From positions 13,074,835-13,138,834 of the forward strand of contig OX243821.1 in assembly GCA_945859605.1 (NCBI GenBank): a stretch of DNA of 64,000 bases. The letters are read 5' to 3'. Both the position numbers and the translations under genes were made by a program. Source of the DNA: Lumbricus rubellus. Its lineage: Eukaryota > Annelida > Clitellata > Crassiclitellata > Lumbricidae. Shown here one piece after another: positions 19,040-51,616 of this stretch (positions are counted from its first letter, which is position 1; every line of letters begins with the position of its first letter). The notes beneath the pieces are model-generated. The model worked only from the letters and a program-made list of their open reading frames with translations. It was not told the DNA's origin and did no database searches.

Positions 19040-19146
19040 CCAGACGAGTGTTGCTAGGATCATAGAAAACGGAGGAGGTGGTTCCAAGTACAAACTTTAT
19101 TTAGCCTAAAGGCCAATCTAAAATGGTGATATATTTTGACTTGCAG

Positions 19147-19550: not shown

Positions 19551-19560
19551 ACCTGCTGCC

Positions 19561-31809: not shown

Positions 31810-32720
31810 TTAAATAAAAATTGCTTCAATCGATCGATGCTCAGAGAATTGAAAAACCTTAATCAGTCCATCATAGCCCCATTCGGATTCAATCAGAAGC
31901 GGTCGACTAGTCGAACCATCCAGAATAATCTTCCGTGGGTATCGCAATCCGTGCCTTTCTTCTGCCAGAATTTCTCTCCTGAATTGCAGATTTGAATCCA
32001 ATAACAAAACTCGTCTGTTCCCTTGATCGACGACTAACACAAATTCATTTCCATCGACGTACAAATAGACTGGATGATTTATTTGTCCGATGCTTTGTCC
32101 ACGTTTTCCACCGAATGACTTCATCAGTTTTCCACGAGCGTCCACAATACACACTCTGTGTATATCATAGTCGCGGGATCCATGACAGACCACGAAATGA
32201 CCATTGGCCAGTTTTATGGCATGCAGTGGAAAACGAATTCCTGCATCTGATAGATCTATTTCACGGATCAATTGTCCATCCGGAGAATATTCGTTTAATT
32301 TATGTCTTTTAAAACCAGATAAGATGACATTCGATTCGGCTGTAACTGATAGACCATGTCCAAAATCGTCTCCTGTTGACCATTTCCTTGTTAACTTTCC
32401 ATATCTATCAACTTTATAGATTTCATTCGACTTATGGGTACCTGAAAAGCCTTTGCAATAAAATATGTAGAGGCACATGTTTCTGTTGCACGATGTAATG
32501 TCTAGTGGATCAACCAATTCGTTCAAATTAAATACTTTACTGAAACGCAATTCTCTCAAATCATAGACTTCAATCTCTGAACTCCAAGCACTGACAACAA
32601 ACAATTCGTTGTCTAAAATGGTCAGGCCGCTGATCGATTTATCTCTCTCTCTTTCTGCGTTTGTTCTGATCGTCCATAGTAAAACTGGGTCAGATTTGTA
32701 TAATTCCTCTGGCAGTGCAG
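31810..32720 (-). CDS. Exon 7: NHL-like beta-propeller, C-terminus
   Basis: Acceptor GCGTCTGTTTTCAG, phase 1 in, stop TAA at 31810-31812. About 303 residues with repeating propeller strands: SGLTILDNELFVVSAWS, HGLSVTAESNVILSG, HAIKLANGHFVVCHGS. The clearest NHL blade is INHPVYLYVDGNEFVLVVDQ followed by GNRRVLLLD. NHL propellers in TRIM and related proteins bind RNA or protein ligands; here it is the likely recognition module. Repeat count (about six) is estimated by eye. Confidence 0.85.
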
Positions 32721-32822
32721 CTGAAAACAGACGCATGTAAACTTATTGAAAAATTTTACATTTCGTGTTTTAAATCTTTAATCAGAAGAGGGATCGAGAG
32801 AACATAATTATCCAAGCACAAT

Positions 32823-32895
32823 AGTAAGTAAGTAATTACGTAGGTAGGTAAGTAAGTAAGTTAGTAAGTAAGTAAGTAAATAAATAGTCAGGTAG

Positions 32896-32968
<73 letters not shown>

Positions 32969-32970
32969 CA
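32823..32970. repeat. (AAGT)n microsatellite
   Basis: An imperfect to perfect AAGT tetranucleotide array in intron 6. Confidence 0.92.
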
Positions 32971-33749
32971 AGTAAATAAGAATATTCTTTATTAGACCAC
33001 CAGTGTAGCCTATATATATATATATATATATATATATGATATATAAAACATTTATGCAAAGTTATACACATATTCGAATAATAAAACTTCTTCTGGCAAA
33101 AAATCAACACTAGGAAGACTGTTAGATTATGTGGCCTGTGTCGGGTATTGTATTGAGTAGCCTTATGAGGAGGGAGGAGGTCATGAAAAATGTGACAAGG
33201 TTAAAAGAATAGAGCGGAAAAGAGCAGATCTCAGCTCTAGAACAGAGTGGGTCAAAACTAGGAAAATCGGTAGGAACGAAGCTTGAGCGGGTCAATTTGT
33301 TGAAAAGACCGTTAAGACGTTTACGATCCATGGCATTGGCAAACCCTCAGCAAACAGGGGAGGCATAAAGTAGGTTAATCCTGCATGCGATTATAGGCTA
33401 GTAGCTCTAGCAACGTCAAACAGACGTTGACCATGGAGGCCGTAGGCGACCAAAACACGTAAAGCAAACATGGATTACCGGACTTTACAAGTTTACAGCA
33501 TATTTTGTTAATGTGAGTCACAAAGCCAATCCGATCAGATATGTTGACACCCAAAACTCATCTGCTGTACCCTATCGATGCCCGAGATGGGGTGAGGGAG
33601 AGCAATGGATTTAGACCTAGGCCGCCTGGATGATCATTTCACTTGTCTTATAGCTTGGTTTATTTTTAGATTGCTAATGTGTGTCAATGGTCATCATTTA
33701 CAGCTTCTATGATGCTAGCCGATGAGCAGTATAGGGCCTAAGAAACAAA

Positions 33750-33960
33750 TTCGAAGTGGGAGAATGGTTTCAGATTGTGACGGGAGTGCGACAGGGATGC
33801 TATCCCCTTGAATTTGTCCGTGGTCTCAGACTGGATAATGACGAGAGTGACGAAGGATGCTTATATTGGACTGAGATGGGTGCATGGTGAGAGGCTAGGG
33901 ATGTTGACTTCGCAGATGACATCGCCCTGTTAGACAATACCTAGGAGGTCAATTAAAGCC
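33750..33960 (+). mobile_element. Non-LTR reverse transcriptase relic
   Basis: Plus-strand translation gives WFQIVTGVRQGC and, after decay, DFADDIALLDNT. These are the VRQGC and FADD (catalytic YxDD-equivalent) motifs of LINE reverse transcriptase. The roughly 50 residues between them are shortened and contain stops, so it is dead. Confidence 0.7.
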
Positions 33961-34059
33961 AATTAAAGATAACATGCAGAACACAAGAAGATGCGCAAAG
34001 ATATAATTTTTATTCTAAGCTGTAACCTACTTTTGTTGAGTTTTAATTTAACTAATGAG

Positions 34060-34192
34060 GACATTTGGACTGGATGACTAAAAAAGGTCATCAACTTTTT
34101 GGCGGATACGAACAAAATTTGTCCCACACCAAAGGCCAATAATTTTTGCCACCCCCCCCCCCCCTCTTCCAAAGTTTACGTATCCACCCCTG
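34060..34192. repeat. CAGGGGYGGATCC-family MITE, right end
   Basis: GACTAAAAAAGGTCATCAAC, TTTTTGGCGGATACG, a poly-C run and the terminus GTATCCACCCCTG match the right half of the hAT-like MITEs at 16434 and 62795. The left end is missing. Confidence 0.6.
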
Positions 34193-34863
34193 CACGGGAC
34201 ACACAGGGCCGATTAAGGGACTGCCCCAGCGAAACTAAGAACATGAGTATTTCAAATAGATGCTTTTGCGCGCAAAAGTATTAATTATTACTTCCACGAA
34301 TTTCCTGTTTGTTGTCACGTTGTTAGTTGCTTGTTATTATAAAAAAAATATTGAAAGTGTCCAAAAATATGTTGCGCGAATGTCATATCAAAGTCGAATA
34401 TCATCATTGTAAAAACGGTTCGCGGACGTTTCGGAAGCTAGATTTATTCAATTTATTCCTTGTGTCCGTGGACGAATCGTCCGTTGACGAAACGTCCGCA
34501 TACGCTAAAACAATGCTTTTAAGAGAAGGCGTCAACTGTGACGGCTCTGCCGTCGCCATATTCAGTTTTAATTATCAAGGTGTCGTTTAACGTGAAACAG
34601 AAAAAGAGTTATATGTGATAATATTCAGGAAAAACACCGAAGGAATTTCGAACATCTGTTTCTTAACGGTGATTAGCACTGATTTTATAGTCATTTTGCG
34701 GCAAGAAGGCGCGGGAAAGCATCAAATGACGCCAGCATTCACTATTTAACAACAAATGTAGCAACCTAAAAAATCGCCTAGAATTTATTCAATAAGAACT
34801 TAGTAATTTAAGGTGCTTACGCAGAGTCTACGCATACCGGTAATTTAAAGAGTAATTGTCTAC

Positions 34864-35952
34864 CTTGAGCAACAAAGGCAATATTACTGCCGTCAGGCTT
34901 GTGATCGAGCTGTTGGACTGCTGCATGACTAAGTTTGTCCTCTAACTCTTGCTTTCGATGTTTCGCATTGTCCATCTCTTCTGGTGACTTCAGTATTCGA
35001 TCATTGTGCAGTGATATTTCAACCGCTGCGTCGTTTTGAGGTCCAATTGGTTCTTTTTCAGTATACTCTACTCTTCTTTTTGTCTCTTGTACTTGTGTTA
35101 GAAGAACCCTAGTGTTTTCCTGTGCCTCAAGTGCTTGATTTCTCAGATAATTCCAGTTCTCGTTCTCTTCTCTCAATAGCTCGCATGCTTCCCTCAACCT
35201 TTCATTTTCTGTTCGCAATGAAATCAACTTAGTATTGTTTTCTTCCAAAAGGTTATCCAGGTCACGAATTTTCTGCTGGTAGTAGAGCTTATCGCTCTCC
35301 GCTTTATTCAAACTGTCTTTCATTTCCATAATAATGGTGCTGTTCAGAAGCTTCTCGTCATCAAGTCGTTTGCATTTCGTTATTTCATTTTGAATTTGGT
35401 TCTTCAATTGTTCTATTGTATCTTCAAATTTCATTCGATCTTTCTTGCTTTGCAACTTTTCACTGGCCAATTCTTGTTGTAATGAATCCAGCTGTGTTCG
35501 CAAGACTTCATTTAACGTTGCAGCAGTCGAGTACTGCCTCAACTTTTCATTTTCTGTTCGCAATGAAATCAACTTAGTATTGTTTTCTTCCAAAAGGTTA
35601 TCCAGGTCACGAATTTTCTGCTGGTAGTACAGCTCATCGATCTCCGCTTTATTCAAACTGTCTTTCATTTCCATAATAATGGTGCTGTTCCGGAGATTCT
35701 CTTCATCAATTCGTTTGCATTTCGCTATTTCATTTTGAATTTCGGTGTTCAAATTTTTTATCTTATCTTCAAATTGCATACGGTCATTCCTTTCACTGGC
35801 CAATTCTTGTTGTACTGAATGCAGCTGTGTTCGCAAGATTTCATTTAACGTTGCAGCTGCTGAGTATTGCCTGGCGCTTTTCCGCAACTGCTCAAGCTCG
35901 ATGTTGGTCTCCACATTTCCGTCGGCAGTTTCTCTCCTCGTCTGATGGCATT
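34864..35952 (-). CDS. Exon 6: coiled-coil segment with internal duplication
   Basis: 1089 bp, phase 1 to 1, acceptor TTATTCTATACAG, donor AAG followed by GTAGAC. The 363 residues are almost wholly heptad-like and rich in E, K, N, Q, L, a long coiled coil likely to drive oligomerisation. Two tandem segments of about 115 residues are near-identical. Both contain TLNE(I/V)LRTQL, IIMEMKDSLNKAE and YYQQKIRDLDNLLEENNTKL. The matching DNA is almost unchanged over more than 100 bp (about 35210-35340 against 35540-35690), so the duplication is recent or homogenised. The C-terminal 90 residues are less regular and lead to the propeller. Confidence 0.85.
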
Positions 35953-36309
35953 CTGTATAGAATAACATTGATAATTAGCGATAGGCCTATACATGTAAAT
36001 AAAGAGGACACTGAGTGTGTCTGTATGACCGAGATGCATTTCCACAGTTTTCGAGCTTTTCACTCCAAACTTTCACCATTGTGTCGGTCTCGGCATGGGA
36101 CACCCCGTGGGGGTGGCGAATCTCTGTCACCATGGGGGCAAATGGTGGTGGGGCGAAAATCAAAATTTTTGCACATTGTGTGTTTGTGTGTCACTTGCAT
36201 TTCCACACTTTTTGTGCTTTTAGCACCACATTTTTGCGGATTGTGGGTGTATGTTTCACTGGCATTTCCACAGTTTCTTTTAACCTTTTAACTGGAGGGG
36301 GCGAGGTGT

Positions 36310-36450
36310 GATGGATGGATGGACAGACCGACGGACGGACGGACGGGGGAGGGAAGGAGAGGGAGAGAGAGGAGGGAGGGAAGAGAGGGGAAGGGGATGG
36401 TAGGAGGCAGAGGAGGGAGAGACGGATTGAGGGACGGATCGACGGAGGGA
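36310..36450. repeat. Purine-rich tract with GGAC repeats
   Basis: GACGGACGGACGG followed by a GGAGGGAAGG-type run on the plus strand. Such tracts can form triplex DNA; no function shown. Confidence 0.8.
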
Positions 36451-37354
36451 AGGAGCGAATGGGGCGTCGAGAAATGCCTGTCCTCTGGCGTTGATTGGTC
36501 CAATTGTTTAAAAAGCCGACGGGAATAAATGGTACGATTGCATAAATCGTGCGTAGGCTACTATAGTAGTTTTTCTGGCATCAGCCAGTTCCGCAGCACT
36601 TCCCGTCCGGATGGAGGTTGTGGCTGGCTAAGTAAGAGGGAGCCACAGTGTCGGAGGGCGGATTTGAGGGCGAGGGTACATGCAACTGTGACGTCCCAGG
36701 TCAAGCAACGACCTGAGTGCCACGGATTCAGTGCAAGGTCATCTGCTTTTTTTCTCAACCGACCTTGACAAACCCGGAGGTTCCTTAACTACTGGATGCC
36801 CACCTGAATGAAACCTCCGCATATAAAGACCCCATGTCGGCCAATTGAGACGCCATAATTTTATGTGAGCCTTCAGTGATTTAACTGGGTGGGAGGCCTG
36901 CAACCAGTGGTCCTCTGTCAGAGATAGATTAAGAATCAAGCAGAGACCAGTTCTCAAAACAGAATCTTATTTCTTGAGAAGAGGATGGTCCGAACAGGGA
37001 CCACAGCGGAGGATGTGCATCAGGTTAGGGGAACTAATTGAGCATCTCAGTAGAATAAGAGCGTCGTGTTTAGTGACGCTTACCAATCTGGACAAGGCCA
37101 GAGATAGCTCGGAGCATCTTGTTCAAGACAGGTCATGAGTGAATCCATCGTGGAGAGTGGGATGCCAAAAAGGAAGGCCTTTTCCGGTGCAATGATTGAA
37201 AAGCGACTGATTGGTTTGGCTAATTGCGAGTCGATATATGTGCCAAATGCGTTGGCGCGGAAGGTGTGCGACACAAGGTAAGATCATGAAGGTCAATATC
37301 AACTGCACTATTACTTCACTATAGTGTGATTAAATTTGTAAACCTAATTGTTTG

Positions 37355-37570
37355 TAGACGTACTTGTTATAGCGCCCTTTCAATCACTCCACTCACAGGC
37401 ACTCCAGACTACAGCGTGGACACTGCACCGGCGTTTCACGCCGAAGCGCTGAGCAATTGCGAGTCAAGGACTTGCCCAAGGTCTCTACGCGGCGACTTGA
37501 GGTGGATTCGAACCTGCAACCCTGCGGCCGCAAGTTAACGAACATACCCACTACACCACCGCGTCTCACA
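37355..37570 (-). repeat. tRNA-derived SINE copy, inverted
   Basis: Reverse complement of the family at 25290 and 25617: tail side TGTTATAGCGCCCTTTC, then TTTCACGCCGAAGCGCTGAG, GGTGGATTCGAACCTGCAAC (B-box region) and CTACACCACCGCGTC head. Confidence 0.65.
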
Positions 37571-38179
37571 AATGTAGCTTAATAACTTAATAACTTAAGT
37601 CTTAAGTGCTTCTAAAAATTCACTTTTCAATATGGCACTTCAAATGTAGCAGCCCCTTTACGCGATGGCTGCATGGGCGGAAACTTAGGGGACACTGTGA
37701 CAGGGAATGTGGTGAGGGACGGTCCATGCATTTGTCTCTCCTCCCATCGTTAAGTGTATGGACATGGACACTTCATGAATACAGTGGCGACGTTAAAATG
37801 TTAGAAGAAGAGATTTTCGTTCGAGCAAATGAATAAAAAAAGGTCACCAAGTTTTTGCAGAGAAAATGAGATTTTTTCCTGAAGATTTGGACCGAAGGAT
37901 TAAAAAAGGTAGTCAGAAATTTTGGTCGGCGCAATGATGGAAAATTTCGTCGGCGACTCAGCCAGTCTTCCGCCCGAGAGGTCGCGCCTTTCCTTTGGCC
38001 ACTCGTTCGTCCCCCACAAGTCTCCGCCCATGTCTCCGCCCATGAATGTCTTCATGTCAAAATCATTATTTATAGGGCCAATACACGCAAGAGATTTTCG
38101 AAACGGTTTCATGGTTCACTTCTTTTTAGTCTGGTAGGATATAATAGACCTATTTTAAAGTTTTATATATCAATATTAC

Positions 38180-38315
38180 CTTGAAGTAAAATATGTAAAC
38201 ACATTTTCATATTATCCTCTGGTTTATCAAAATACAACAGGGATTTGATTGCGATATCTGTCTGTAGACGAAGGTCAAGCCCTTTTAAGCTTGCTTGAAT
38301 GTTGACCCCTTTGGT
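38180..38315 (-). CDS. Exon 5: bridging exon of the CARD gene
   Basis: 136 bp between acceptor ATTTTATTTCAG and donor CAAG followed by GTAATA. It enters in phase 0 and leaves in phase 1, exactly what is needed to join exon 4 to exon 6. Encodes TKGVNIQASLKGLDLRLQTD, then IAIKSLLYFDKPEDNM and CLHILLQ, probably helical. No known domain. Without it exon 4 to exon 6 would shift frame and stop, so a transcript skipping it would encode a truncated CARD-CARD protein. Confidence 0.75.
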
Positions 38316-38830
38316 CTGAAATAAAATATCAGGATTATAATGTCAATAGTCAAAATTTTCTAACGATAACGGCCATCTCACTAACTTAGTGATTTCCATC
38401 AAGTAAATTAACCCTTTAATGCCGAGATGGTAGTAAATGGTATGGAAAATCCTACAGTGCTGGCCAAAGTATTAGAAACACATGAAAAAAACACAAAAAA
38501 GTGTGTGAAATTACATTTTCAATGCTATGCGCTAGTAATATCAGTGGTTTTTTTTAAATTGATTATATCTTTTGGTAATAGGTGGAGGTTAGTTTTAATC
38601 GAAACAAAATTTTCGGGAAATTTTCTTCTTTTCACTTAATTCAGTACATAGACAGAACATTAGAAACACACGAATCAAACTGTAAATAGTTTATGAAATA
38701 ATATTATCAATGCTCTGCGCTAGTGATATATGTGTTTTTTGAGTAGCTTATGTTATTTGCTTATGTAGGTGAAGGTCATTTGTCACTGAAATAACTGTTA
38801 TTCACGGAAAGTTTTACTTTTTCATCGAAA

Positions 38831-39890
38831 ATGGGTAAAATTAAAGATTTAACACCGCGGAAGGTTTCTGCTGTGAAAACTTTGATTAAGGAGCAGTGCT
38901 ACAGTCAGAGGGAGATTGCTAAGAAATGTGCAGCTTCTGTTAACAGAGTTAAAAGAGAATTAAGCTTAGATCTTGGACAAGATTTCTGTGAGGAAAGAAC
39001 CAAGAACAGGAAGTGTAGCGGCATGAAATCAAGGTTTTGTACTCGGACCAGACGAATTCTGATCAGACTCTGTAAATCCAATCGTAGAGCAACAAGTTGC
39101 GAGCTCTCTCGTCAGGTATCAGAGTATGGCGTAAAGGTTTCACCCAAAACTGTGAGACGCGAGTTGTGTAATGCTGGTTCCACGACAACTCGTCTACCGA
39201 CAACTCGTCTCCGGACAATTGGTCTAACGACAACTGGTCTACAGACGAATAGTATTGATGAAATAGAAGCTGGATCTACAAAAAAGGGTTTTAGCGTAAA
39301 TGGAAGCTGGATTGATGATTTTAATTCATGTATTCCGACATGCACCCATTTCTACTTCAAATCTAAAAATACCTCCATCCAGTTTCTATTTCAGATATAA
39401 AAATACCCTCATCCAGCCTCCATTACCTAAGCGGTTTTCTTATCAATCCAGCTTCTATTTCAGATCTAGAAATACCTTCATCCGGCTTTTATTTATCATG
39501 CGTTATTTTCGTCAATCCAGCTTCTATTTCACCAGTAAAAGAACCATCATCCAGATTCCATTTCTCTTGCGCTTTTCATCAATTCAACCTCCACTTCACC
39601 TCTAAAAACTATCATCCAGCTTCCATTTCTCAAGCGCTGGATAAGTTGTCAGTATATAGACCAGTTGTCGTTAGAGGAATTGTCCGGAGACCACTTGTCG
39701 TTAGACGAGTTGTCGGTAGACGAGTTGTCGTGACACCTGTAATGCTGGATTAACTGCTCGGAGTCCCGTTAAGAAAGCCAAACTCACACCAGCCAGGATG
39801 AACAAGAGGTTGCTATGGGCAAAACAGTACAAAAATTGGACTGCCAATGACTGGACGAAGGTGTGCTTCAGTCATGCACACTCTCATCAC
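38831..39890 (+). pseudogene. Tc1-like transposase remnant, interrupted
   Basis: From ATG: MGKIKDLTPRKVSAVKTLIK, then SQREIAKKCAASVNRVKREL (helix-turn-helix) and TSCELSRQVSEYGVKVSPKT, the paired DNA-binding domains of a Tc1 transposase. At residue 116 a GACAAC element interrupts it (39176-39737). After the 9-bp duplication the frame resumes with LTARSPVKKAKLTPARMNKR and YKNWTANDWTKVCFS, where the catalytic domain should begin. The DDE catalytic region is missing, deleted before the right terminal repeat. Confidence 0.8.
39176..39737. mobile_element. GACAAC element, complete, perfect 9-bp TSD
   Basis: 562 bp from GGTTCCACGACAACTCG to GAGTTGTCGTGACACC, flanked by TGTAATGCT at 39167-39175 and 39738-39746. 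The left block has CGACAACTCGTC motifs, then ATAGAAGCTGGAT units; the centre switches to ATCCAGCTTCTATTTC units; the right block has inverted GACAAC motifs. No coding potential. The coding frame of the interrupted transposase resumes cleanly after one TSD, which fixes the boundaries. Confidence 0.9.
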
Positions 39891-40357
39891 TGAAGCAATT
39901 AAAACTAACCTCCACCTGTTACCAAAAGATATAATCAATTCTAAAAACACTGATATTACTAGCGCATAGCATTTAAAATTTAATTTCACACACTTTTTAG
40001 TGTTTTTTATCATGTGTTTCTAATGCTCTGGCCAGCACTGTATACCCTCCTGCATTAAAGGGTTAATAGGCTATGTTCTGTATAAAAATTAATCTTAGAA
40101 CCAATCGCTTTCAACTTGTCTAAATTCCATTATGATTGCAAAGACTTCCTTCTCAACTGGTTGACTACTGTTGTTCAGTTTCTATCCTAAGGCTAACAGA
40201 ATCATAATGCAGTTGGACCGATAGTGAAATAAGAAAAGGTAGCCTACACTTACAAAACACTAGGTAGCCTACCGGTACCGAAGTTAAACTTATTTATTAT
40301 GAAAAAAGGCCTATACAGTTGAATAAGATCTAATCATTTCTAAGGGTTTATACATAC

Positions 40358-40644
40358 CTTCTGAATACTAGCTGTTTTCTCCTTATGGTTGGCCGTTGTT
40401 TGCTCCGACTTTGCATGTTCTTGGGCTGATTTTGATTGAATCCCTTGCTTTGATGGTGAAGCGGATGGAATACGTTTCAGTCCGGGTCTAGGAAGAGTTT
40501 TTGGCTGAAGAATTGGTTTTGAAAAATAACGAGCTGGAACAGAAATCTTTCTAGATTTCTGAACTTCTTTTGGTAGTAGCTTGTGACTTATACGCTTTGC
40601 TTCTTGAACTACTGATGAAACTGTTGCGGGGTCAGCAGATGAAC
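40358..40644 (-). CDS. Exon 4: linker of the CARD gene
   Basis: 287 bp, phase 1 to 0, acceptor TTGCGTCCACAG, donor AAG followed by GTATGT. Encodes SSADPATVSSVVQEAKRISH, then a basic Ser/Pro/Lys-rich stretch (KSRKISVPARYF, LPRPGLKRIPSASPSKQG) ending TASIQK. Low complexity and disorder-prone, a plausible site for phosphorylation or partner docking. A Tc1 relic begins only 36 bp upstream of its acceptor. Confidence 0.75.
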
Positions 40645-40680
40645 CTGTGGACGCAATCAATTTACAAAATGCATCAATTA

Positions 40681-41677: not shown

Positions 41678-42089
41678 TAGGTGAATGCAGCCCACGGGCG
41701 CCCAACAAGGTTTAGCCTTTTCTGCAGCAGATTTACCCTTTGTCGGTGCGCAGTTGCCGACAGGGATAACACCCCATACAAATATTTATAACATGGCACA
41801 CTGACTCACCTAAGAAAAGGTTATAGGGCAACAATTAAAATCTTCGTTGGTGCGGCGCCGCCTCCTAGTTGCTATTTCTTCATATTCTAAAGAGCTCTGT
41901 CGCTCCCCTATAGGTGTGTGCACTGTACAAGAACCTCTTGCTCTCTGTTCCTCCACTCAGGGTGAACTCATCATTTCTAAATCTCAAATTTCTTTTAGAT
42001 AGCACCATGCTTTCTTTGATGTTGGTCTCGTGATATGGAATGAGCTTCCAATGTCATTTACGCCTAATGCCTGCGGTTTACTCATGCCA

Positions 42090-42175
42090 CGTTAAAACCG
42101 TCTTTCTCAGCCGGGTTTAGGTCGGGAGCGTTCCTCAATTATAACCTGAGGAAGCGCTATATAAATCTCCACAAT
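42090..42175 (+). repeat. SINE tail fragment
   Basis: GGTCGGGAGCGTTCCTC followed by GAAGCGCTATATAAATCTCC, the conserved tail of the tRNA-derived SINE family in this window. Confidence 0.5.
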
Positions 42176-42223
42176 GAATGAACGTCTCGAGTGAAGAGTG
42201 ACACATTTCACAGTGTAGCCTAC

Positions 42224-42523
42224 CTTTTCGTTTTCTGAGTTCCCTTGCCAGATGGTTTTGGCCCGAGTTTTCTAACGCTACTATAAATTTCTCAAAGTCT
42301 TCTGGGGATTTCATGATGAGCAGTTGAAGCAGTGACGAGTTCTTCTGGAAGCTATCATTTGCGCAGAGAATTGACTCTTTCTCGCGCATTGTCAACACAT
42401 TCTGTTGGTACAGCAGATTAATCAGTTCATGTTCTGTGTCCAATTTCCCTGATAATAACTCGAAATTTCGGCGAATCAAGTTTTTATGATCCGAAGCATC
42501 TCCGCTATTTGTTTCAGCAAATG
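42224..42523 (-). CDS. Exon 3: second CARD domain
   Basis: 300 bp, phase 1 to 1, acceptor TTCGTTCCAG, donor AAAG followed by GTAGGC. Encodes FAETNSGDASDHKN then a CARD: NLIRRNFELLSGKLDTEHEL, INLLYQQNVLTMREKESIL, SSLLQLLIMKSPEDFEKFIV and ALENSGQNHLARELRKRKG. Helix order and the terminal N-Q-x-x-L-A pattern are those of CARD domains. CARDs pair with other CARDs to nucleate caspase, NF-kB or antiviral signalling complexes. A symmetric exon carrying a whole domain favours exon shuffling. Confidence 0.85.
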
Positions 42524-42767
42524 CTGGAACGAATTTAACTTATTTCTTAACATCGTAAAAAAACACACCAAGAGTTGATAATAAGATATTGAATCTGAAT
42601 TCGATGTGGAATTTGAAAGAAGTAGGGCCAGTAGGCCTATGCGCTTCGTTAACACAATAAAACAGAACAAACCGCTCTAACATTCAGCTGTTTTGTGCTG
42701 AGCTGTAACCACTAGGACACCACACATGATCGTGCTGTCAAATAATGGTTTTATTAAGTTCGAGGCA

Positions 42768-42965
42768 GGGCTGTTTTTAAGGAATTTTTGGAACTGCAGT
42801 GCACAACCCCTTCTCTTTTTTCCCATCATCCATGGTAAATTACTTCCAATCGGAGGACAATGGCCTTTTTTGCTAGTTTTAACTGTACAGAAGTGCTTTT
42901 ACAACTGCACAAGTGACAAATCCATTAAGAACTGCACATTTTGTGAAGGCTACAACAGCGTGTTA
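42768..42965. repeat. ACTGCAC MITE family copy
   Basis: Begins CAGGGCTGTTTTTAAGGAAT, contains TACTTCCAATCGGAGGACAA and TTTTACAACTGCACAAG, and ends near AACTGCACATTTTGTG. Related copies at 14155, 28745 and, inverted, 57500. Confidence 0.6.
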
Positions 42966-43245
42966 CAAAAGCCCTGGTTCGAGGAGGGAACGCCATTTAA
43001 TTTGTAGGCTATACTGGGTTCTGTTGTTGGACCAATTTCATCACAAGTTGATAATGAAGGCATAGCGCATCCGTATAATCTATTAGTCAGAAATTTGCAT
43101 AATACACAGAGGAGATGGGCTACAATTGAGTACAATCCTATGCAGTAATATGGGCTTTAAACAAGTTGAAAAAGATTATTATTGGTTCTAGGAAGGGCTA
43201 TGCGCCGGTGTCGCGTGACAGTCTCCCCCTTAAAAGTCTCCCCAA

Positions 43246-43477
43246 CAGTGGCGCAACTAGGGGGGTGCTGGGGGGTGCTTGAGCACCCCCCAGGCTAAAA
43301 AGGTGACCCACACAATTTTTCCAAAACCGATGAGGTTTTTTTGGTGCGTGGGGGGGGGGGGTAGGGGTCATATTACACAATCAAGCAAGTTCCTTTGGCG
43401 CTCGATAATTCGCACCATCGGCGCTTACAATAATAATTCTGAGCACCCCCCAGGAAAATTTTCTGGTTGCGCCCCTG
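43246..43477. mobile_element. hAT-like MITE, CAGTGGCGCAAC ends
   Basis: Runs from CAGTGGCGCAACTAGGGGGG to GGTTGCGCCCCTG with perfect 8-bp flanks CTCCCCAA at 43238-43245 and 43478-43485. GAGCACCCCCCAGG blocks lie inside both ends. 232 bp, non-coding. Confidence 0.82.
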
Positions 43478-43704
43478 CTCCCCAAGACTTTATTTCGAAA
43501 CGGATTCTCCCACCCCCGGCGGATCTGTTTGAGAATAAATTGGCCCCCGGAGAATATATTCTGAAATAAATTCTACGTGGGGAGAGAATATTTCCGCCGT
43601 CCACGAAATAAACTATTCCCCGTTCAGCGTGAAATCGGCTACAGTTGCATCACATTTAGAGATGAGTATTCTAAACGGTTAGTTTACGTTGCCAGGTTAT
43701 ATAA

Positions 43705-44735
43705 TGTAACGGAATCTCAGCCGGCGGGTGGGAAGAGCGGATGCCTAACTCTCCCACCAGGTGGTAAGGCTTGCGTGTCGCACAAAGATGGCGCAAGTCC
43801 GGCCTCCGTCGTCTATCGAAGGGCTTAGCAGTGTTTCCCCAGTCGCGACGTCCGTACGAATCAACACGAAGACAAGCAGGTATTTTCAGACGATATATTG
43901 TAACACACGACTCCACACGTCAGAAGCAGGCATGCACGTGATACACCGCGAACTATCGAATCCCAGCAGCGGACGGTCATGCACCTCTCGGCAACTCCCA
44001 CAGCAATGGCTGACTACGGGGGCGCCCCACTGCGTCGAACACGGGCACTACGCGGCAGCGACGTACTGCGGCGGCGGCAAAGACAAGCACCGACGACCGA
44101 CTCTCAGCGACAACGACGGCAGCTCCCACTAGCGACTGACGGCGGCAACGACGACAGCAGCTGCTCTCGACGAACTGAAACCTCCAACACGGTGACTGAC
44201 TGAAGAACTCTCGATGACTGACTGCGTGCAAGCAGCACTTCTATTTATACAAGACCGAGGGGACAGGGGTCCGGACAGGGGTCTATGACGTCAGAGGTCC
44301 GGACCGGGGGCTGGAAGCGAAGGAGGAGGGGAGGGGACTACCACGTCAGGGATCAGGTCTGAGATCACTAGGTGCAAGGGAAGGGGAGGGGACCGCTACG
44401 TCAGAGGACCGGACAGGGGTCTATGACGTCAGAGGTCCGGTCCGAGGTCCGGGGTCTTCCCGCGCAAAGATCCGCGCATGCGCACTAAGGGGGGACCGAC
44501 GTCAGAGGTCCGTCCGAGGACTTCCCGCGCAAAGATCCGCGCATGCGCACTAAGGGGGGACCGACGTCAGAGGTCCGGACAGGGGACTTGGCGCGCAAAG
44601 CTCCGCGCAAGCACACGTGCCAACGACGGCGCGAATCGACCGCCAACGAAGCCAATTAACCGATAGCAAGATCGCGGCGGCGAAGGAGGGGGAAGGGGGG
44701 AAACTACCGCGGATGCACAGGCGAATTTCGCTACA
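43705..44735 (-). repeat. 3' LTR (element on minus strand)
   Basis: Begins TGTAACGGAATCTCAGCC in plus orientation and ends TTTCGCTACA. It contains duplicated GATCCGCGCATGCGCACTAA blocks and several GACGTCAGAGGTCCGGAC motifs (CRE-like TGACGTCA cores). No difference from the other LTR was found by eye. Confidence 0.92.
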
Positions 44736-45270
44736 TCCTTCTCCCACCACGATTCGAAATGTCCCTATTTCGAGGGGTCAGGACCCACGGGACCTCCCGG
44801 AAACAAAGACCCTCCCGTGACCGTCCGCATTAAACAATAACAGGCCAACGGGCCAATGGCAACATTCCTGCCTTTAAACGACTGCAAGTCGCAACAGTCA
44901 AACAACGTAGAAATCCAACTCGGAAGCAACGACTGTCTCTAAAATGTCCAGAGTCTCTTACAAGTCTATTCATAGAACGCAGCCAACGGGCCACAACAAT
45001 CAGATACTTAGTCTATAACACATAACATAGCCAACAGGCTAACGATACGAATCATAAAAGCGTGTTTCAACTTTGAAGCAAAGAAACAGGCCAACGAGCC
45101 ACACATAATGAACACATATAATTAACCGATGCTAAACTTAAGCGAACAAGAATGTCCATTATTCATAAAAGTCTCAAGTTAAATAGTTCACGAAGAAAGT
45201 CTCAACGTTCCAATGTTCACGTTCCACCCAAAAGTCTCAGAGTCTAATTCTCACTTCATAGTTTAAGCGT
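44736..45270. other. 3' untranslated region of the LTR element
   Basis: Starts (plus orientation) with the complement of the polypurine tract, then AT-rich sequence with repeated AACGGGCCA-type motifs. No coding content. Confidence 0.5.
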
Positions 45271-46107
45271 CTATTCGTAACGAACCGGACGACGGACCAT
45301 TCGCTTAGGTCGGCCATCCTGGTAGTTCGCAGTCAACGGCGACGAAGCATCTGCGGCGGTGGACTCGTTAGGCACACGCGTGGCAGTGTCGTTTTCCTTG
45401 TCCAGACATTCGTCCAAGCACGGACGCAGTTTGTCCACATGAGCGACGAAAGGCCGTGAATGCCTTGACTTTCGTAGTCTGTAGTTGACGTCGCCACATT
45501 GTTCTATCACGTGAAATGGACCCGTGTACATTCGCGACCATTTCGGACTGCGACCCTGGGAACGTCGAAGGGTGTAGCACCACACCCGATCACCTGGAGA
45601 GAACTTTCTCGGCCGGATGCGCAGGGCATACGCATGCTTTCGGCGTTCAGCAGAGACCCGTAGCTGTTCCGTTACCAAGCGATGCGCGTCCTCCATGTTT
45701 GAAGCTCGACCGACGTGAGACGCTACGTCGACGTCGACCATATTGTCGTCGGTCGTCATGACAACGGGTGCTTGATGCGCGCAGGTAGCGGCCGTCGTAC
45801 AAGCAGGACCTACGACGTTGCTCACAGCAGCGGCAGCTGCTGCCGTCGTACAGGCAGGACCTACAGGGCAGCTGACGGTAGCTGCTAACGTCGTTCCCAT
45901 GGCATCAGCTTCGTCAGCTGAACGAGTGACGATTTCATCGTCAACAACCAAACGAGCTGCAGTCTTTGCGTCAGGCGGGAATCGTGGGCATGAAGCAGAA
46001 TCCAACTCAGCAGAGGGTGGACCCAAAATATCGCTCCTCGAACGTTCATACTGTTCTAGTTGGGCAACCTCTCGACTTTCTCGGCGACAATAACACGCCG
46101 GCACCAC
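45271..46107 (-). CDS. Retroelement Pol remnant: integrase C-terminus
   Basis: A 278-codon frame overlapping the end of Gag-Pro by about 50 bp in another register. Residues 1-140 are Ala/Thr/Asp-rich linker. Residues from about 150 read EQLRVSAERRKHAYALRI and GDRVWCYTLRRSQGRSPKW, then YTGPFHVIEQCGDVNYRL, the GPY/F module at the end of Ty3/gypsy integrases. The tail ends KRMVRRPVRYE. The zinc-binding and catalytic (DDE) parts of integrase and all of RT are missing, so an internal deletion joined Gag-Pro to the integrase tail. Confidence 0.8.
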   Translation of the reverse strand: MVPACYCRRESREVAQLEQYERSRSDILGPPSAELDSASCPRFPPDAKTAARLVVDDEIVTRSADEADAMGTTLAATVSCPVGPACTTAAAAAAVSNVVGPACTTAATCAHQAPVVMTTDDNMVDVDVASHVGRASNMEDAHRLVTEQLRVSAERRKHAYALRIRPRKFSPGDRVWCYTLRRSQGRSPKWSRMYTGPFHVIEQCGDVNYRLRKSRHSRPFVAHVDKLRPCLDECLDKENDTATRVPNESTAADASSPLTANYQDGRPKRMVRRPVRYE

Positions 46108-47660
46108 GTTGATCCATTCCCTCTGACCAATGGGATGCGTCTACGCCCAATAAACAAAGCTCCATTCCCGAAACTCAAGCGACAACGCTGCTCTCTTAGA
46201 AAATCCATTCCCAACATTGGTTCAGAAATCTGGTCGGACACTAACAAGACAGTATGGACCACAAAACCATCCCGAAATTTAATAGGCAACCGGACCTCAC
46301 CCAGGACATTAATATCAGTGCCGTTAGCAGCCATCAAAAAGCGAGTACAAGATCGAAGCTCTAACCCCTCAACAGCTGAAGACGGAACCAGGCTTACTTC
46401 AGATCCTGTGTCGATGAGGCACATCAGCGGTCGCTCGTTGATCACTCCACGAACGTAGACGGCGTTGCTGCTGGCACGGTCGGGCAGCTTCGGACGAGTC
46501 GTGTGGTTCACCAACACGGACGTCGATGGCGCGGTTGCGTCATGTTCCGTTGTATCCTCGTCGTTCGGCGGGTCTCGGAAGCGGCGTCGCTGACGGCAGT
46601 CTCGGATCACGTGGCCAGTGCGGTTGCACCCATAGCAAGTCACGGTCCTCCTCGTAGTCTCCGGCTGACGATCTCCAGATCGGCGGTCCCCAAGACGCTG
46701 GTCGGGTCTCGGTCCATTGTCGATTGTAGACTGGTTGCGCAGATCCTGGAACTGATCGTCCATCTTCCTCTCCATTTCGCGTTGCCAACGGCGCTGGTCT
46801 TCGCGTTGCGTCGACAAGAAGCGGTCCAACGTCGACTGGAGCTGGTCGCTCGGGTCAACTTCCTGTGTTCCACGAACACGGTTCGACGGTCTCCTGCGAT
46901 CGTCGTTCTCAGAGGCTCGCTGGTAAGCCTCCAAACGTAGCGCGGTTCGGTAAGCCTCATCCAGAGTCTTCGGCTCACGTTCCCTGACTTTCAACGAAAG
47001 CTCCCGGTCTCGTAGAGCTTCCAGGAACGAGTCTCTCGCGATGATCTGCGTCGTCTCGTTCGAAGGAACGGGATAGGCCAATACAACGAGTCGGCGGATC
47101 TCGTGCAGCAGATCACTCAAACTTTCTCCGGGTCCTTGACGTCGGTAATACAACTGTGCACGGAAAGTCTCTGCTTGTCCGTCCGTCCCGTATCTCTGTC
47201 GGAGACGCTGCACAAGTTGGTTGTAGGTCACGTCGGTCTGCGCACCGAAATCCCAGAGAAGTTGTGTCGCCGCCTTCTCCAACGCGCAGCGCAGATGATC
47301 CACTCGGTCCGAGTCGGTCCACCGATTGTGACGAGCGCACACCTCGAACTGTACAAGGAAGGACTCCAGGGACCCAGTCCCATCGAATCGACCCGGCTTC
47401 ATCGGCGTCGGTCGGTTCCGCAGCAGACTTCCGAAGTTCTCCAGCAACTCCATCGACGAGTCTGTTGTCTCCTTCTTCACGCGGGGACTGGTCTCCACCG
47501 GTTCCTCGTCATCGTCGGAGTCGAGTTTCATCAGCCGGACCCGGTCCAGGTGCTTCTGCGTCGTCGCCCTTCTCGTCGCAGGCGGAGAGATATCGGCAGG
47601 CGTGCGGATCTCAAAGGGTCTCGGATACCTGATCGTGATCTCGTCGTCTTCCAGCATCAT
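46056..47660 (-). CDS. Retroelement Gag-protease
   Basis: 534 codons in one intact frame. About residues 80-260 are a capsid-like region with RFDGTGSLESFLVQFE, YYRRQGPGESLSDLLHEIRR and EAYRTALRLEAYQ. A CCHC zinc knuckle follows (CYGCNRTGHVIRDC, about residue 345), then an aspartic protease active site LIDTGSEVSLVPSSA (about 415) and a flap-like segment ending MLGMDFLRE. It packages element RNA and matures the particle. The frame shows no internal lesion despite loss of RT, consistent with recent trans-mobilisation. Confidence 0.9.
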   Translation of the reverse strand: MMLEDDEITIRYPRPFEIRTPADISPPATRRATTQKHLDRVRLMKLDSDDDEEPVETSPRVKKETTDSSMELLENFGSLLRNRPTPMKPGRFDGTGSLESFLVQFEVCARHNRWTDSDRVDHLRCALEKAATQLLWDFGAQTDVTYNQLVQRLRQRYGTDGQAETFRAQLYYRRQGPGESLSDLLHEIRRLVVLAYPVPSNETTQIIARDSFLEALRDRELSLKVREREPKTLDEAYRTALRLEAYQRASENDDRRRPSNRVRGTQEVDPSDQLQSTLDRFLSTQREDQRRWQREMERKMDDQFQDLRNQSTIDNGPRPDQRLGDRRSGDRQPETTRRTVTCYGCNRTGHVIRDCRQRRRFRDPPNDEDTTEHDATAPSTSVLVNHTTRPKLPDRASSNAVYVRGVINERPLMCLIDTGSEVSLVPSSAVEGLELRSCTRFLMAANGTDINVLGEVRLPIKFRDGFVVHTVLLVSDQISEPMLGMDFLREQRCRLSFGNGALFIGRRRIPLVRGNGSTWCRRVIVAEKVERLPN

Positions 47661-47720
47661 CTTCGGTAGACTCGTCTATTCGTCGACTGGAACAACTGCG
47701 TACCCCACTTCTGGTACCAG

Positions 47721-48751
47721 TGTAACGGAATCTCAGCCGGCGGGTGGGAAGAGCGGATGCCTAACTCTCCCACCAGGTGGTAAGGCTTGCGTGTCGCACA
47801 AAGATGGCGCAAGTCCGGCCTCCGTCGTCTATCGAAGGGCTTAGCAGTGTTTCCCCAGTCGCGACGTCCGTACGAATCAACACGAAGACAAGCAGGTATT
47901 TTCAGACGATATATTGTAACACACGACTCCACACGTCAGAAGCAGGCATGCACGTGATACACCGCGAACTATCGAATCCCAGCAGCGGACGGTCATGCAC
48001 CTCTCGGCAACTCCCACAGCAATGGCTGACTACGGGGGCGCCCCACTGCGTCGAACACGGGCACTACGCGGCAGCGACGTACTGCGGCGGCGGCAAAGAC
48101 AAGCACCGACGACCGACTCTCAGCGACAACGACGGCAGCTCCCACTAGCGACTGACGGCGGCAACGACGACAGCAGCTGCTCTCGACGAACTGAAACCTC
48201 CAACACGGTGACTGACTGAAGAACTCTCGATGACTGACTGCGTGCAAGCAGCACTTCTATTTATACAAGACCGAGGGGACAGGGGTCCGGACAGGGGTCT
48301 ATGACGTCAGAGGTCCGGACCGGGGGCTGGAAGCGAAGGAGGAGGGGAGGGGACTACCACGTCAGGGATCAGGTCTGAGATCACTAGGTGCAAGGGAAGG
48401 GGAGGGGACCGCTACGTCAGAGGACCGGACAGGGGTCTATGACGTCAGAGGTCCGGTCCGAGGTCCGGGGTCTTCCCGCGCAAAGATCCGCGCATGCGCA
48501 CTAAGGGGGGACCGACGTCAGAGGTCCGTCCGAGGACTTCCCGCGCAAAGATCCGCGCATGCGCACTAAGGGGGGACCGACGTCAGAGGTCCGGACAGGG
48601 GACTTGGCGCGCAAAGCTCCGCGCAAGCACACGTGCCAACGACGGCGCGAATCGACCGCCAACGAAGCCAATTAACCGATAGCAAGATCGCGGCGGCGAA
48701 GGAGGGGGAAGGGGGGAAACTACCGCGGATGCACAGGCGAATTTCGCTACA
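47721..48751 (-). repeat. 5' LTR (element on minus strand)
   Basis: 1031 bp, same ends and internal motifs as 43705-44735 and apparently identical. It should contain the Pol II promoter of the element, read leftwards from 48751. Confidence 0.92.
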
Positions 48752-48771
48752 ATAACAAGAAATTATATATA

Positions 48772-50447
48772 TGTAACGCTCGTAGGCCCACCTTTCTCCC
48801 GATCGGGGCGCTACTCCCGATCGTTGCCGGGGAGAGGTGGCCATACTTTCTAATAGGTGCGTTGGACCTGGGGCAAATGAACCGGTCAGACCAAATTCCT
48901 TTGGTCTCGCTCCCGTTTTCGGGTTCATTTCCCTTCGGAGGGGAAAAGTGTCATAGTGAAGCGAGGTGTTCGAGGGCCTAGGCACGGTCACTGGTCGGTA
49001 GACAACCTCCGGACCAGAGTCCGAAGTATCTGGGTTCGTTGGGCACCTATTGTGAGCGTCCTAATATTTGTTTCCTCCCATCTTTCCATCCTTTCTTCCC
49101 ATTTCCTTCTTTCCTCTTGCTCCTCGTCTCGTCTACTAGTCACCTGAGTCAGGGTCTGTCTCAATTCCATAACCTCAGTCCGTAACTCTTTTCTGTCTTT
49201 CCTGGTTTCGGTCATGTCTTCCAACATTTCCTTCAGTTGGGCCTTTATTTCCACGGATTCCTGCTTCATCCCTTTTAGGGCGTCACTCATCTTATCCAGA
49301 TGAGCCACCAGTTGGGAGTAAAGGGGGTCGAGGACCACTTCAGGGGAAATATTCCCTCCTTCTTCCTCTTCTTCCGAGTTCGAATTCCCCTCATTAATCA
49401 TTAAGGTTAGAGAAGAAGAAGCCATTGCTTTATGATAATGTAATCAAAGGAACAGACGTGGTAATGCAATGGCTACGCCTAATTAGCACAGAAGAACAAT
49501 ATAATGTGAACCACTAAACTAAATAGAAGAGACTACCTACTCTAGATTAATATATCAAAGTCATAACTATCTAAGAAAGTGCTCGTAAAGTCACAACAAT
49601 TGTTGCTAATAGTCCACTTAAGGTGCTAGACGGTTCTCTACCCGTTCGCCTAATATTCACGAGACTAATATTACAAAGTACAAGTAACCATAACTCTCAA
49701 ATATCATTCATTCATTCAGCCTATAGTAGCAAAGCGAATATACACTAGTTCAAGTACACGTGATTACACTTGCAAATATCCTTCATTCATTCAGCCTATA
49801 ATAGCGAAGCGAATATTATATAGTTCAAGTACACGTGACTACACTCTCAAATGTCACTCATTCAACACAAAGTAGCGAAGTGATATTAAATGCACAAAAG
49901 CCATAGCTTCTGCACGGAAACACCCTAGAACCCAGACAATATTTTAGTCCTTAATTAAGCAGAGGCCTACAATTAAATATCTCTTTTCTCACAAATGAAT
50001 AAAGTTCTAATTGCTACCCGTTCGAAAAGGGGCGTTTCCCGTCACTCCTCCAGACAGCATGACGAGCGAAACTCGACCAAAGGAATTCTACTGCCACAGC
50101 TGTTTCTTCCGTTGCAAGAACCGTCTTTCGTGGTTTCTTCTTCCACCGTGGTTTCGACCATAAAGCTCTTAACTCAGCGTAAATTGTCGAAGCCTAACTA
50201 CGCAATTGCACAAGACTTTCTTCCCGGTTCCACAGTCACGTGACGACCTTCTCGTTCCGTTTCAAAGACAACTCTGCCCTCGCCGTCCAGATTCAAGTCT
50301 CTTCTCCCTCCGTTCCAAGCGGAGCTCAGCTTTTATACCCCATACGCCCTCTAGCGAATAAACTATCAGCCCGCCTTAAACGCCAGCTGCCCTAATCCAC
50401 TACAGAGCAAAAACCCATCCCCCGTAACGAGGTTATAGGTCGTTACA
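48772..50447 (-). mobile_element. Second LTR-type element, gag N-terminus only
   Basis: Bounded by TGTAACGCTCGTAGG and CCTATAACGACC-type inverse ending CGTTACA, flanked by TATA on both sides. It starts 20 bp from the previous LTR element. The minus strand has a leader or LTR of about 1 kb with three diverged 70-bp units (49690-49880, GTTCAAGTACACGTGA). It then has a coiled-coil frame at 48988-49425 and ends soon after. I infer an LTR element with most of its interior deleted, but I could not find a second LTR copy, so a different class is possible. Confidence 0.55.
48988..49425 (-). CDS. Gag-like coiled-coil fragment
   Basis: 145 codons from ATG: MASSSLTLMINEGNSNSEEE then a long charged coiled coil (LVAHLDKMSDALKGMKQE, MTETRKDRKELRTEV, QEERRKWEERMERWEE), stopping at RLSTDQ. 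The N-termini of some Ty3/gypsy Gag proteins look like this. No capsid, knuckle or protease follows. Identification is by context and composition only. Confidence 0.45.
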   Translation of the reverse strand: MASSSLTLMINEGNSNSEEEEEGGNISPEVVLDPLYSQLVAHLDKMSDALKGMKQESVEIKAQLKEMLEDMTETRKDRKELRTEVMELRQTLTQVTSRRDEEQEERRKWEERMERWEETNIRTLTIGAQRTQILRTLVRRLSTDQ

Positions 50448-50923
50448 TATAGGCTACTTCTACTTCAGAAAATTTCTTCCAATAGGCCTACAGAGTTTCA
50501 GCCAGGGGAGCCTCTGTTTCGCAACGAGACTTTGTATTGGGGGGGGGACTTTATTTGTGACACCGGCTGCGCCGTCGCCGCAGACATTTCATGGGCGCCG
50601 CCGCCGATTTTTTATAATTATATTTTTCATGTCTTGCATGCTTTCGCCATAAAATGACTCCGTCAGTGCAAAATACGCTTCCGTTCAAATTCATCCTACC
50701 GCTCAATGTGCTATGACAAGATAAAATTGGAAACAGAGAACTGTGTGTGATTGTGTCGACCAGAAACGTGAAGACGAAGAGACGGGGATATCGATTTGTC
50801 TGAAAAGTGCAACTCACCGTCTAATAGAAAATGCTCATGTAACTAATTAGGCTTCAATAAATTGTTTCTATGCACTTATTTCTGAATGGTTTATTTAACA
50901 GCTAATAATTTTGTCATACTTAC

Positions 50924-51196
50924 TGTCATCACTACAGACCAACATCTGACATAGATGCATTTGGTTCGTATCTTTAATGAGTGCAAAGAAACACTCATAG
51001 ACATCTTTTGGTTTCCTGGCTATGATGCTTAGCAGCTCTTCATTGGCTCGCATTGGAGTTGATTGCAGATGCTGGATATGCTCCAACTCTTTGTACGTCA
51101 GCTTCTCTTTCTGATACATTGCTGCTATTATGTCTCCCACACAAGACAAATTGCTAGCCAATTGGTTGTATCTTGTTTGAATCTTCTGGCTATGCT
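50924..51196 (-). CDS. Exon 2: first CARD domain
   Basis: 273 bp, phase 1 to 1, acceptor TGTGTATTTGGAAG, donor GACA followed by GTAAGT. Encodes EHSQKIQTRYNQLASNLSCV, GDIIAAMYQKEKLTYKELE, ANEELLSIIARKPKDVYECF and ALIKDTNQMHLCQML. This is the six-helix pattern of a CARD with the usual LL-x-I and F-x-x-L anchors. With the exon 3 CARD this forms an N-terminal tandem pair, as in RIG-I-like receptors and NOD2, though sequence kinship to those is not implied. Confidence 0.85.
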
Positions 51197-51519
51197 CTTC
51201 CAAATACACAAGATAAGTATAATTATATTTAACAATGAGCATGTCAATAAAAACTATACGACCAAAATATTCATCTTAAATTCAAATTTAAAGAACTTTG
51301 GGCTGAAATGTGCAAAGCATTCTCACTTGGTAGGATGAGGGCTTCTATTATTTTAGCAACACAATTAGACAAAAATCATCTAACAAAATTACTCATTATT
51401 ACAATGTTAACAATCAAAAGTAATAGTATAACTGCAAAACAATTAAAAACTAAAGATCTTTTTTTCGTAATTATAATTAGGGCCTATATACAATTCAAAT
51501 TTGTTTTAAAATAAATCAC

Positions 51520-51616
51520 CCTCTTGTTGCGCAAAAGGAATGCGCTGTAGTTCTTCTTCAACAAGTTGGAGTGCAACATTCCACAGCTGATCGCTTCGTG
51601 ATGAATATCCAGCCAT
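51520..51616 (-). CDS. Exon 1: N-terminus of the CARD gene
   Basis: ATG at 51616 in a favourable context (GTCGCAATGG), 32 codons reading MAGYSSRSDQLWNVALQLVE and EELQRIPFAQQE, donor GAGG followed by GTGATT, phase 1. The split codon joins exon 2 as glutamate. The start is the first ATG of the segment; the helical N-terminus leads directly into CARD 1. Confidence 0.72.

Follow-up and report, generated by a model that had tools for sequence, protein, structure and literature searches.

What might a protein do that carries two CARDs at one end and a six-bladed NHL propeller at the other? The question is raised by a gene on the minus strand of a 64,000-nucleotide stretch of the Lumbricus rubellus genome (C14:13074835-13138834 of the species' own assembly, 787 Mb in 368 contigs), the whole of which is called the window here. 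An earlier note on this DNA had joined seven minus-strand exons in phase into a frame of 1030 residues, and both splice reading and the paralogous exons described below confirm this chain. We lean slightly towards the view that the gene belongs, as a dispersed member, to a large and modular family of intracellular receptors, in which a diversifying propeller would act as the sensor and CARDs would provide the output. This view is built on sequences and on models predicted from them.

A seven-exon gene for a tandem-CARD, coiled-coil, NHL protein

When joined in frame, the seven exons encode 1030 residues and a stop codon, with the domain order CARD, CARD, linker, coiled coil and six-bladed NHL propeller. 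The splice contexts of six exons were read directly, while exon 5 was located by scanning the interval from exon 4 to exon 6 under constraints, which four candidates passed, one of them with the required 136 nt. Phases agree at all six junctions (intron phases 1, 1, 1, 0, 1 and 1). The locus spans 19.8 kb, including an 8.4-kb intron that contains a 5-kb retrotransposon, and an in-frame ATG lies just 5′ of exon 6. The features of the locus are the following.

51520..51616, minus strand: exon 1, an ATG and 32 residues with a phase 1 end; a homologous exon with an ATG is present in locus L040
50924..51196, minus strand: exon 2, CARD 1, phase 1 to phase 1 (Pfam CARD, 5.1e-9)
42224..42523, minus strand: exon 3, CARD 2, phase 1 to phase 1 (Pfam CARD, 4.5e-9), with homologues on contig C4
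40358..40644, minus strand: exon 4, basic linker with a net charge of +13 over 95 residues; homologous exons in L039 and L041
38180..38315, minus strand: exon 5, 136 nt, phase 0 to phase 1; homologous exons in L041 and L039
34864..35952, minus strand: exon 6, coiled coil, phase 1 to phase 1, identified by a heptad test and by homologous exons in L041 and L039
35192..35872, minus strand: tandem duplication within exon 6, units of 336 and 348 bp that are 88% identical (self-blastn)
31810..32720, minus strand: exon 7, six-bladed NHL propeller and stop codon
31775..31792, minus strand: two AATAAA polyadenylation-type signals, 17 and 29 nt past the stop
43705..48751, minus strand: LTR (long terminal repeat) retrotransposon that occupies intron 2 without contributing to the protein; both LTRs are 1031 bp long and identical in sequence (self-blastn), and gag/protease and integrase C-terminus domains are present

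Phase-1 introns flank both CARD exons and the coiled-coil exon, and the propeller exon starts in phase 1, a pattern that would be expected of shuffled modules. The tandem duplication of about 340 bp in exon 6 suggests that the coiled coil was lengthened by duplication. The AATAAA pair is weak evidence because the surrounding stretch is A+T-rich. The retrotransposon, in which no reverse transcriptase was found in the two frames scanned, is probably a recent insertion, judging from its identical LTRs.

Both CARD exons clear the curated Pfam cut-off of 23.9 bits (36.5 bits for exon 2 and 36.6 bits for exon 3), so that the profile check proposed in the earlier note comes out in favor of two CARDs. 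The structural check agrees for the second of them, since the AlphaFold model of exon 3 has six helices (pLDDT 84.9) and its best match in the Protein Data Bank is the CARD of Apaf-1 (TM 0.81, rmsd 1.1). The six-helix death fold is thus judged on the exon 3 model and exon 2 on its Pfam profile. When compared by sequence with solved structures, both CARDs match RAIDD, Apaf-1 and a designed protein, none significantly (best 0.034), and CARD-CC (CARD-coiled coil) proteins are absent from these matches. The Pfam model CARD_2, which we take to represent RIG-I-type CARDs, matches exon 3 at 1.1e-5, under its cut-off.

For exon 6, none of 200 shuffles reaches the observed value of the heptad test. The propeller was recognized differently. 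The earlier note had proposed a profile search for NHL as a check, and Pfam NHL has no match in exon 7 of the window; among relatives from public contigs described below, P0006 scores above the cut-off and P0002 just under it. The identification instead comes from the predicted structure, which is a six-bladed propeller most like NHL structures, with the RNA-bound Brat and TRIM71/Lin41 propellers among the closest solved folds.

In the Pfam scan of the 1030 residues, CARD is the only family that passes its cut-off. There is no match to NB-ARC, NACHT or helicase up to E 10, as the earlier note had anticipated in describing a protein that lacks a nucleotide-binding module, and exons 4 and 5 carry no known domain. 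The scan likewise yields no leucine-rich repeats and no RING or B-box, and the RING/B-box exon of a paralogue has no match in the window at E 0.01. Neither a secretion signal nor a membrane segment was apparent by eye in the window protein.

Paralogues repeat the exon chain

Every exon of the window gene has a homologue in paralogous loci of the same genome. In a paralogue at C4:3.17-3.18 Mb (L039 and L035), exons 2-7 can all be recognized within 11 kb, with order and strand preserved. Exons 2 to 6 are recognizable in L041, and L040 has exon 1 ahead of exon 2 (69% over 32 aa, with the ATG in ATGGCTGG context). Homologues of exon 4 occur in L039 (37%, 6.6e-10) and L041 (37%, 0.003), of exon 5 in L041 (53%, 8e-11) and L039 (49%, 5e-7), and of exon 6 in L041 (2.6e-31) and L039 (2.1e-29), the start of the paralogous exon 6 being almost identical in DNA to that of the window. 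Where they were read, the splice contexts of the paralogues equal those of the window in position and phase, with one GC donor 3′ of L039 exon 3. Exons 4 and 5, which lack a domain, are therefore supported by homologous exons with agreeing splice contexts.

An additional exon of about 141 residues, here called exon X, lies 3′ of the coiled coil in two tandem-CARD paralogues, whose copies are 44% identical to each other (L035:617-1039, with apparent phase-1 splice sites; L039:9501-9923; L040 9959-9537, minus strand). Exon X has no significant Pfam match, and no frame in the window resembles it at a significant E-value.

A large family of propellers with different upstream modules

The genome contains at least 130 propeller loci, including the one in the window, and 120 of these are on contig C4 between 1.35 and 20.76 Mb. 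This count, which merges into loci 140 matches from 130 scored of 780 candidates, is a lower bound and includes loci whether intact or not. There are also at least 150 CARD matches (150 scored of 466 candidates). At an identity of 58% or more, the genome yields 14 further matches to the CARD1 exon (13 on C4 and one on C20), and CARD2 homologues adjoin most CARD1 matches. Further groups of CARD exons were seen outside the propeller cluster on contigs C8, C7, C17 and C2, and the genome is rich in CARD exons.

A CARD match on the same strand lies within 20 kb upstream of 24 of the 130 propeller loci, including that of the window, and 13 loci have two or more such matches. In none of the 130 does the same upstream range hold an opposite-strand CARD without an intervening listed propeller. 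When strands were randomized (1000 trials), 15.3 loci on average and at most 22 had such a same-strand match, a control that is weaker than it appears because the arrays run in one direction, which the control ignores; with random positions (300 trials) the average was 5.0 and the highest count 12. The input for these tests comprised 51 of the 79 CARD1 matches (E up to 0.0036) and CARD2 matches to E ~0.1, with the 15 weakest of 149 omitted.

To survey the propeller loci without a CARD match, approximately 10 kb upstream was read for eight of 106, a non-random sample. Upstream frames were listed on the strand of the propeller, and both strands were searched with six queries only. RING or RING/B-box modules were found at three loci, kinases at three, a CARD at one and nothing recognizable at one.

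L084, upstream: RING by Pfam, with a B-box at 1.4e-4, just under the cut-off
L082, upstream: RING by Pfam, no B-box listed
L089, upstream: RING or RING/B-box type, 68% identical to the L084 exon
L085, upstream: protein kinase (Pfam, 8.9e-16)
L086, upstream: protein kinase (Pfam, 7.8e-10)
L087, upstream: protein kinase, 43-54% identical to L085
L083, upstream: a CARD like that of P0002 (4.6e-7), followed by a coiled-coil-like frame
L088, upstream: nothing recognized

All matches of the six-query search are on the strand of the propeller. The L083 frame between CARD and propeller is reached by 0 and 7 of 200 shuffles in the heptad test, and L086 belongs to the locus with the best propeller score against that of the window (63%). 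The propeller thus appears, from these sequences, to be a shared module that is combined with exchangeable signaling modules. The upstream modules of the other loci are presumably spliced to their propellers, although an upstream position on the same strand is no proof of one transcript. The kinase exons of L085, L086 and L087, which share the strand of their propellers, could represent a kinase-NHL type of receptor.

The earlier note had described the window protein as a death-fold pair placed on a chassis like that of TRIM-NHL proteins, and this description is supported by the three homologous propeller loci that have RING or RING/B-box exons upstream where others have a CARD or a kinase.

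The top face of the propeller varies most

Substitutions were counted by parsimony on a FastTree tree of 50 propeller exons (30 and 20 from two retrievals; overall ratio 0.56). The top face was defined as the D-A and B-C loops with the adjoining strand halves, with strand positions taken from the model. The top face has 18.2 nonsynonymous changes per site and the bottom face 9.2, compared with 7.5 and 7.0 synonymous ones. The difference between top and bottom is reached by none of 20,000 label permutations and by one of 275 circular shifts. Among 25 disjoint closest pairs, dN is higher at the top in every one (sign test, 3e-8), with a pooled dS of 0.41 for the top and 0.39 for the bottom. The top face also holds 24 of the 25 most variable columns, position 78 being the exception. 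The net charge of the top loops ranges from -7 to +7 among the 50 propellers and is 0 in the window protein, and the bottom loops remain negative. Misalignment as the source of the top-face signal was rejected, given that synonymous change there is barely raised.

The CARDs are under stronger constraint than the propeller. Median dN/dS is 0.21 for CARD1 (80 of 120 pairs usable), 0.28 for CARD2 (44 of 136) and 0.47 for the propeller (1066 of 1225), in a comparison that draws its CARDs and its propellers mostly from separate loci. The 16 sequences of the CARD1 set are 15 distinct ones, L040 and L070 sharing one CARD1 exon.

Relatives in public contigs

A search with words from the whole protein found no relatives, and a query restricted to the propeller found P0002 and the bacterial-looking P0003, whose match spans 19% of the query. 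P0002, from a public contig, is 51% identical over the propeller and consists of an uninterrupted frame of 622 residues with an N-terminal CARD (2e-6, above the cut-off), a charged stretch and an NHL propeller. Its propeller is at most 56% identical to the genome propellers compared, which means that it is not one of these copies. The three corresponding frames of L083 (CARD, middle and propeller) are separated by kilobases, and P0002 may thus derive from a spliced transcript. Half of the residues in the middle stretch of P0002 are D, E, K or R, and the stretch looks helical; a coiled coil there was considered and dropped, as 165 of 200 shuffles at one threshold and all 200 at the other score at least as high in the heptad test.

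With P0002 as the query, four more relatives were found (P0004-P0007), which have the same kind of propeller and other N-termini, in which Pfam recognized no CARD. An F-box in P0005 was dropped, there being none in the Pfam scan, and TMEM154 in P0004 is under the Pfam cut-off and probably reflects a single membrane-like segment. By eye, the propeller of P0004 stands behind this one segment, possibly as a membrane-anchored version.

Other features of the window

Neighboring CARD-like exons lie on the plus strand, and C2H2 zinc-finger frames on the minus strand. In addition, TAGGCCTA is a recurrent motif.

18780-22741, plus strand: CARD-like exons that by eye form a nearly identical pair (~18.8 and 19.14 kb), of which the second scores 0.0022 for CARD, under the cut-off
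22436-22741, plus strand: 102-residue frame that matches L007 on contig C8 (38%, 1e-14), where a similar CARD is also present
1202-4135, minus strand: C2H2 zinc-finger frame, 977 aa from stop to stop (by eye)
10890-12044, minus strand: C2H2 zinc-finger frames, of which 10890-11690 is confirmed by Pfam

Relation to known systems

Like TRIM proteins, the window protein has a coiled coil ahead of its C-terminal domain. It differs from TRIM-NHL proteins (TRIM2/3/71, Brat, Thin and Mei-P26) in lacking RING and B-box and in having two CARDs instead, and its family is large, clustered and equipped with a fast-evolving propeller. The NHL TRIMs are presumably members of TRIM group 1. That group is highly conserved, with a mean human-mouse Ka/Ks of 0.13 according to the excerpt of PMC2533329. 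The group 2 TRIM-SPRY proteins (TRIM5-like), for which the same excerpt describes clustered, lineage-specific expansion, fast evolution and a C-terminal recognition domain, share these features with the window family; the window family has a propeller in place of SPRY and a CARD output.

The CARD-CC proteins CARD9/10/11/14 (CARMA), which act with BCL10 and MALT1, share with the window protein an N-terminal CARD, a coiled coil and a C-terminal regulatory part. The window protein has two CARDs, a linker before the coiled coil, and an NHL propeller rather than a MAGUK module or an undefined tail. CARD-CC proteins operate by CARD nucleation. By analogy, the same logic of autoinhibition and nucleation might be expected of the window protein: in the excerpt of PMC5978004, vertebrate CARD-CC proteins are held inactive by sequence C-terminal to the coiled coil and become active once it is deleted. 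We infer that ligand binding could bring about a comparable release. The term NHL is absent from the main text of PMC5978004.

The CARD fold is shared with Apaf-1/CED-4 and with NLRs; the propeller sensor recalls the WD40 propellers of Apaf-1, and the multigene family recalls NLRs. However, NB-ARC or NACHT is lacking, NHL takes the place of WD40, and a coiled coil stands where those proteins have an ATP-driven oligomerizer. The comparison with Apaf-1 made in the earlier note therefore holds for the CARD fold, but in layout CARD9/10/11/14 are closer. Tandem N-terminal CARDs are also found in RIG-I-like receptors and NOD2, whose helicase, NACHT and leucine-rich repeats have no counterpart in the 1030 residues.

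A literature search in full texts, mostly non-subscription, returned no description of a CARD-NHL protein among the matches listed, as judged from titles and the starts of abstracts. The earlier claim that this domain order is undescribed has thus met no counter-example within mostly open literature. TRIM reviews that name both CARD and NHL do exist among those matches. In coral, NHL genes are expanded and CARD proteins are separately abundant, with no fusion reported in the excerpt of PMC11639872, and a comparable grafting of N-terminal domains is described for lophotrochozoan RIG-I-like receptors in the excerpt of PMC8998645.

Proposed function and alternatives

If the gene is a receptor of the proposed family, the top face of its propeller (D-A and B-C loops) would contact ligands that differ among family members, and this would be the face that diversifies. 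The coiled coil would oligomerize the protein and may help keep the CARDs inactive, as in CARD9/CARD11. Binding of a ligand would release or cluster both CARDs, and the CARD pair could then become a platform for CARD-containing partners and lead to cell death or inflammatory signaling. Sister loci with RING/B-box or protein kinase modules upstream suggest that one type of sensor may feed several output pathways. The earlier proposal of a ligand-gated sensor, plausible but hypothetical as to ligand and gating, gains support from the variable top face.

A broader proposal, which we advance tentatively and consider rather more apt to be wrong than right, is that these genes form a new class of animal innate immune receptors with a repertoire on the scale of NLRs. 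A phase-1 NHL propeller exon, read by its top-face loops, would be a fast-evolving sensor that has been exon-shuffled with a single CARD, a tandem CARD, a RING/B-box ligase or a protein kinase at 130 loci or more, 120 of them on one contig within ~19 Mb, and the CARD versions would nucleate assemblies without a nucleotide switch.

Several observations weigh against a receptor family of this kind. No CARD match is found within 20 kb upstream of 106 of the 130 propeller loci, and an earlier and smaller count gave a same-strand CARD downstream of 12 of the 130, presumably belonging to the neighboring gene in the array. The middle of P0002 does not pass the heptad test. In L041/L040, the single gene read from the 11.05-11.23 Mb subfamily, which is closest to the window gene in its CARDs, there is no convincing NHL exon, just a 56-residue match (7.6e-5). 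Pooled dN/dS for the top face is 0.64 and exceeds 1 in only one of the 25 pairs. Nonsynonymous excess is seen at nine of 280 codons at an uncorrected 0.05 (eight of them on the top face), where 14 are expected under neutrality, and residue 30 of the propeller is the sole codon that survives Bonferroni correction. With a ratio below 1 and few codons in excess, the top face may simply be under relaxed constraint.

Such relaxation is part of the alternative that survives best, which is nevertheless unlikely: a fixed CARD-coiled coil scaffold of a BCL10/paracaspase or apoptosis pathway, in which the propeller localizes or autoinhibits the protein. The CARD9/10/11/14 layout, the autoinhibition of vertebrate CARD-CC proteins by sequence C-terminal to the coiled coil (excerpt of PMC5978004) and the top-face dN/dS under 1 are all consistent with it. 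A fixed scaffold has no need for 130 propeller copies, however, nor for kinase and RING versions, and the nearest sequence matches of the CARDs, though not significant, are to RAIDD, Apaf-1 and a designed protein rather than to CARD-CC proteins. Moreover, the CARD-CC protein of a sea anemone is not activated by C-terminal deletion, according to the same excerpt.

Somewhat less probable still is a family devoted to self/non-self recognition, whether in allorecognition or between gametes, or to the recognition of stress damage, by the same sensing logic with other ligands. Clustered, diversified families serve allorecognition too in invertebrates, and the present data do not identify the ligand. 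On the other hand, outputs through CARD, RING and kinase modules are characteristic of innate immunity, and the window protein, in which CARD is the sole Pfam family above cut-off, has no secretion signal or membrane segment that can be seen by eye.

We regard as improbable a role in RNA regulation, in which the propeller would be an RNA-binding domain like those of Brat and LIN-41/TRIM71, with the CARDs condensing the bound RNA or coupling it to translation control. The idea draws on the RNA-bound propellers among the closest solved folds, but Brat-type RNA binding uses a positively charged top face, whereas the top loops of the window protein have a net charge of 0, those of the 50 propellers vary from -7 to +7, and the top face is the most variable.

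Finally, that the model fuses a CARD-CARD gene (exons 1-4 or 5) with a coiled coil-NHL gene (exons 6-7) could be argued from the size of the locus, the long retrotransposon-bearing intron, the ATG just 5′ of exon 6 and the derivation of the model from genomic sequence, but this is very improbable and is set aside because exons 2-7 recur collinearly within 11 kb of one paralogue, and exons 2-6 recur in L041, with agreeing splice positions, to which the agreement of phases at six junctions and the single CARD and NHL frame of P0002 may be added.

Implications

How animals without antibodies recognize many different microbes is a long-standing question. To our knowledge, the large recognition repertoires are built from leucine-rich repeats, or from SPRY, immunoglobulin or scavenger-receptor domains. 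If the modular receptor family proposed here is real, a further recognition fold would join these, present at 130 or more loci with CARD, RING and kinase modules upstream. The family would also make it possible to study, as a natural experiment, how a single sensor is coupled to cell death, ubiquitin and phosphorylation. The tandem-CARD protein would also represent a CARD activator that operates without an ATP-driven switch. Because the variable residues lie on a single face of a domain whose relatives have already been crystallized, these possibilities would be directly testable.

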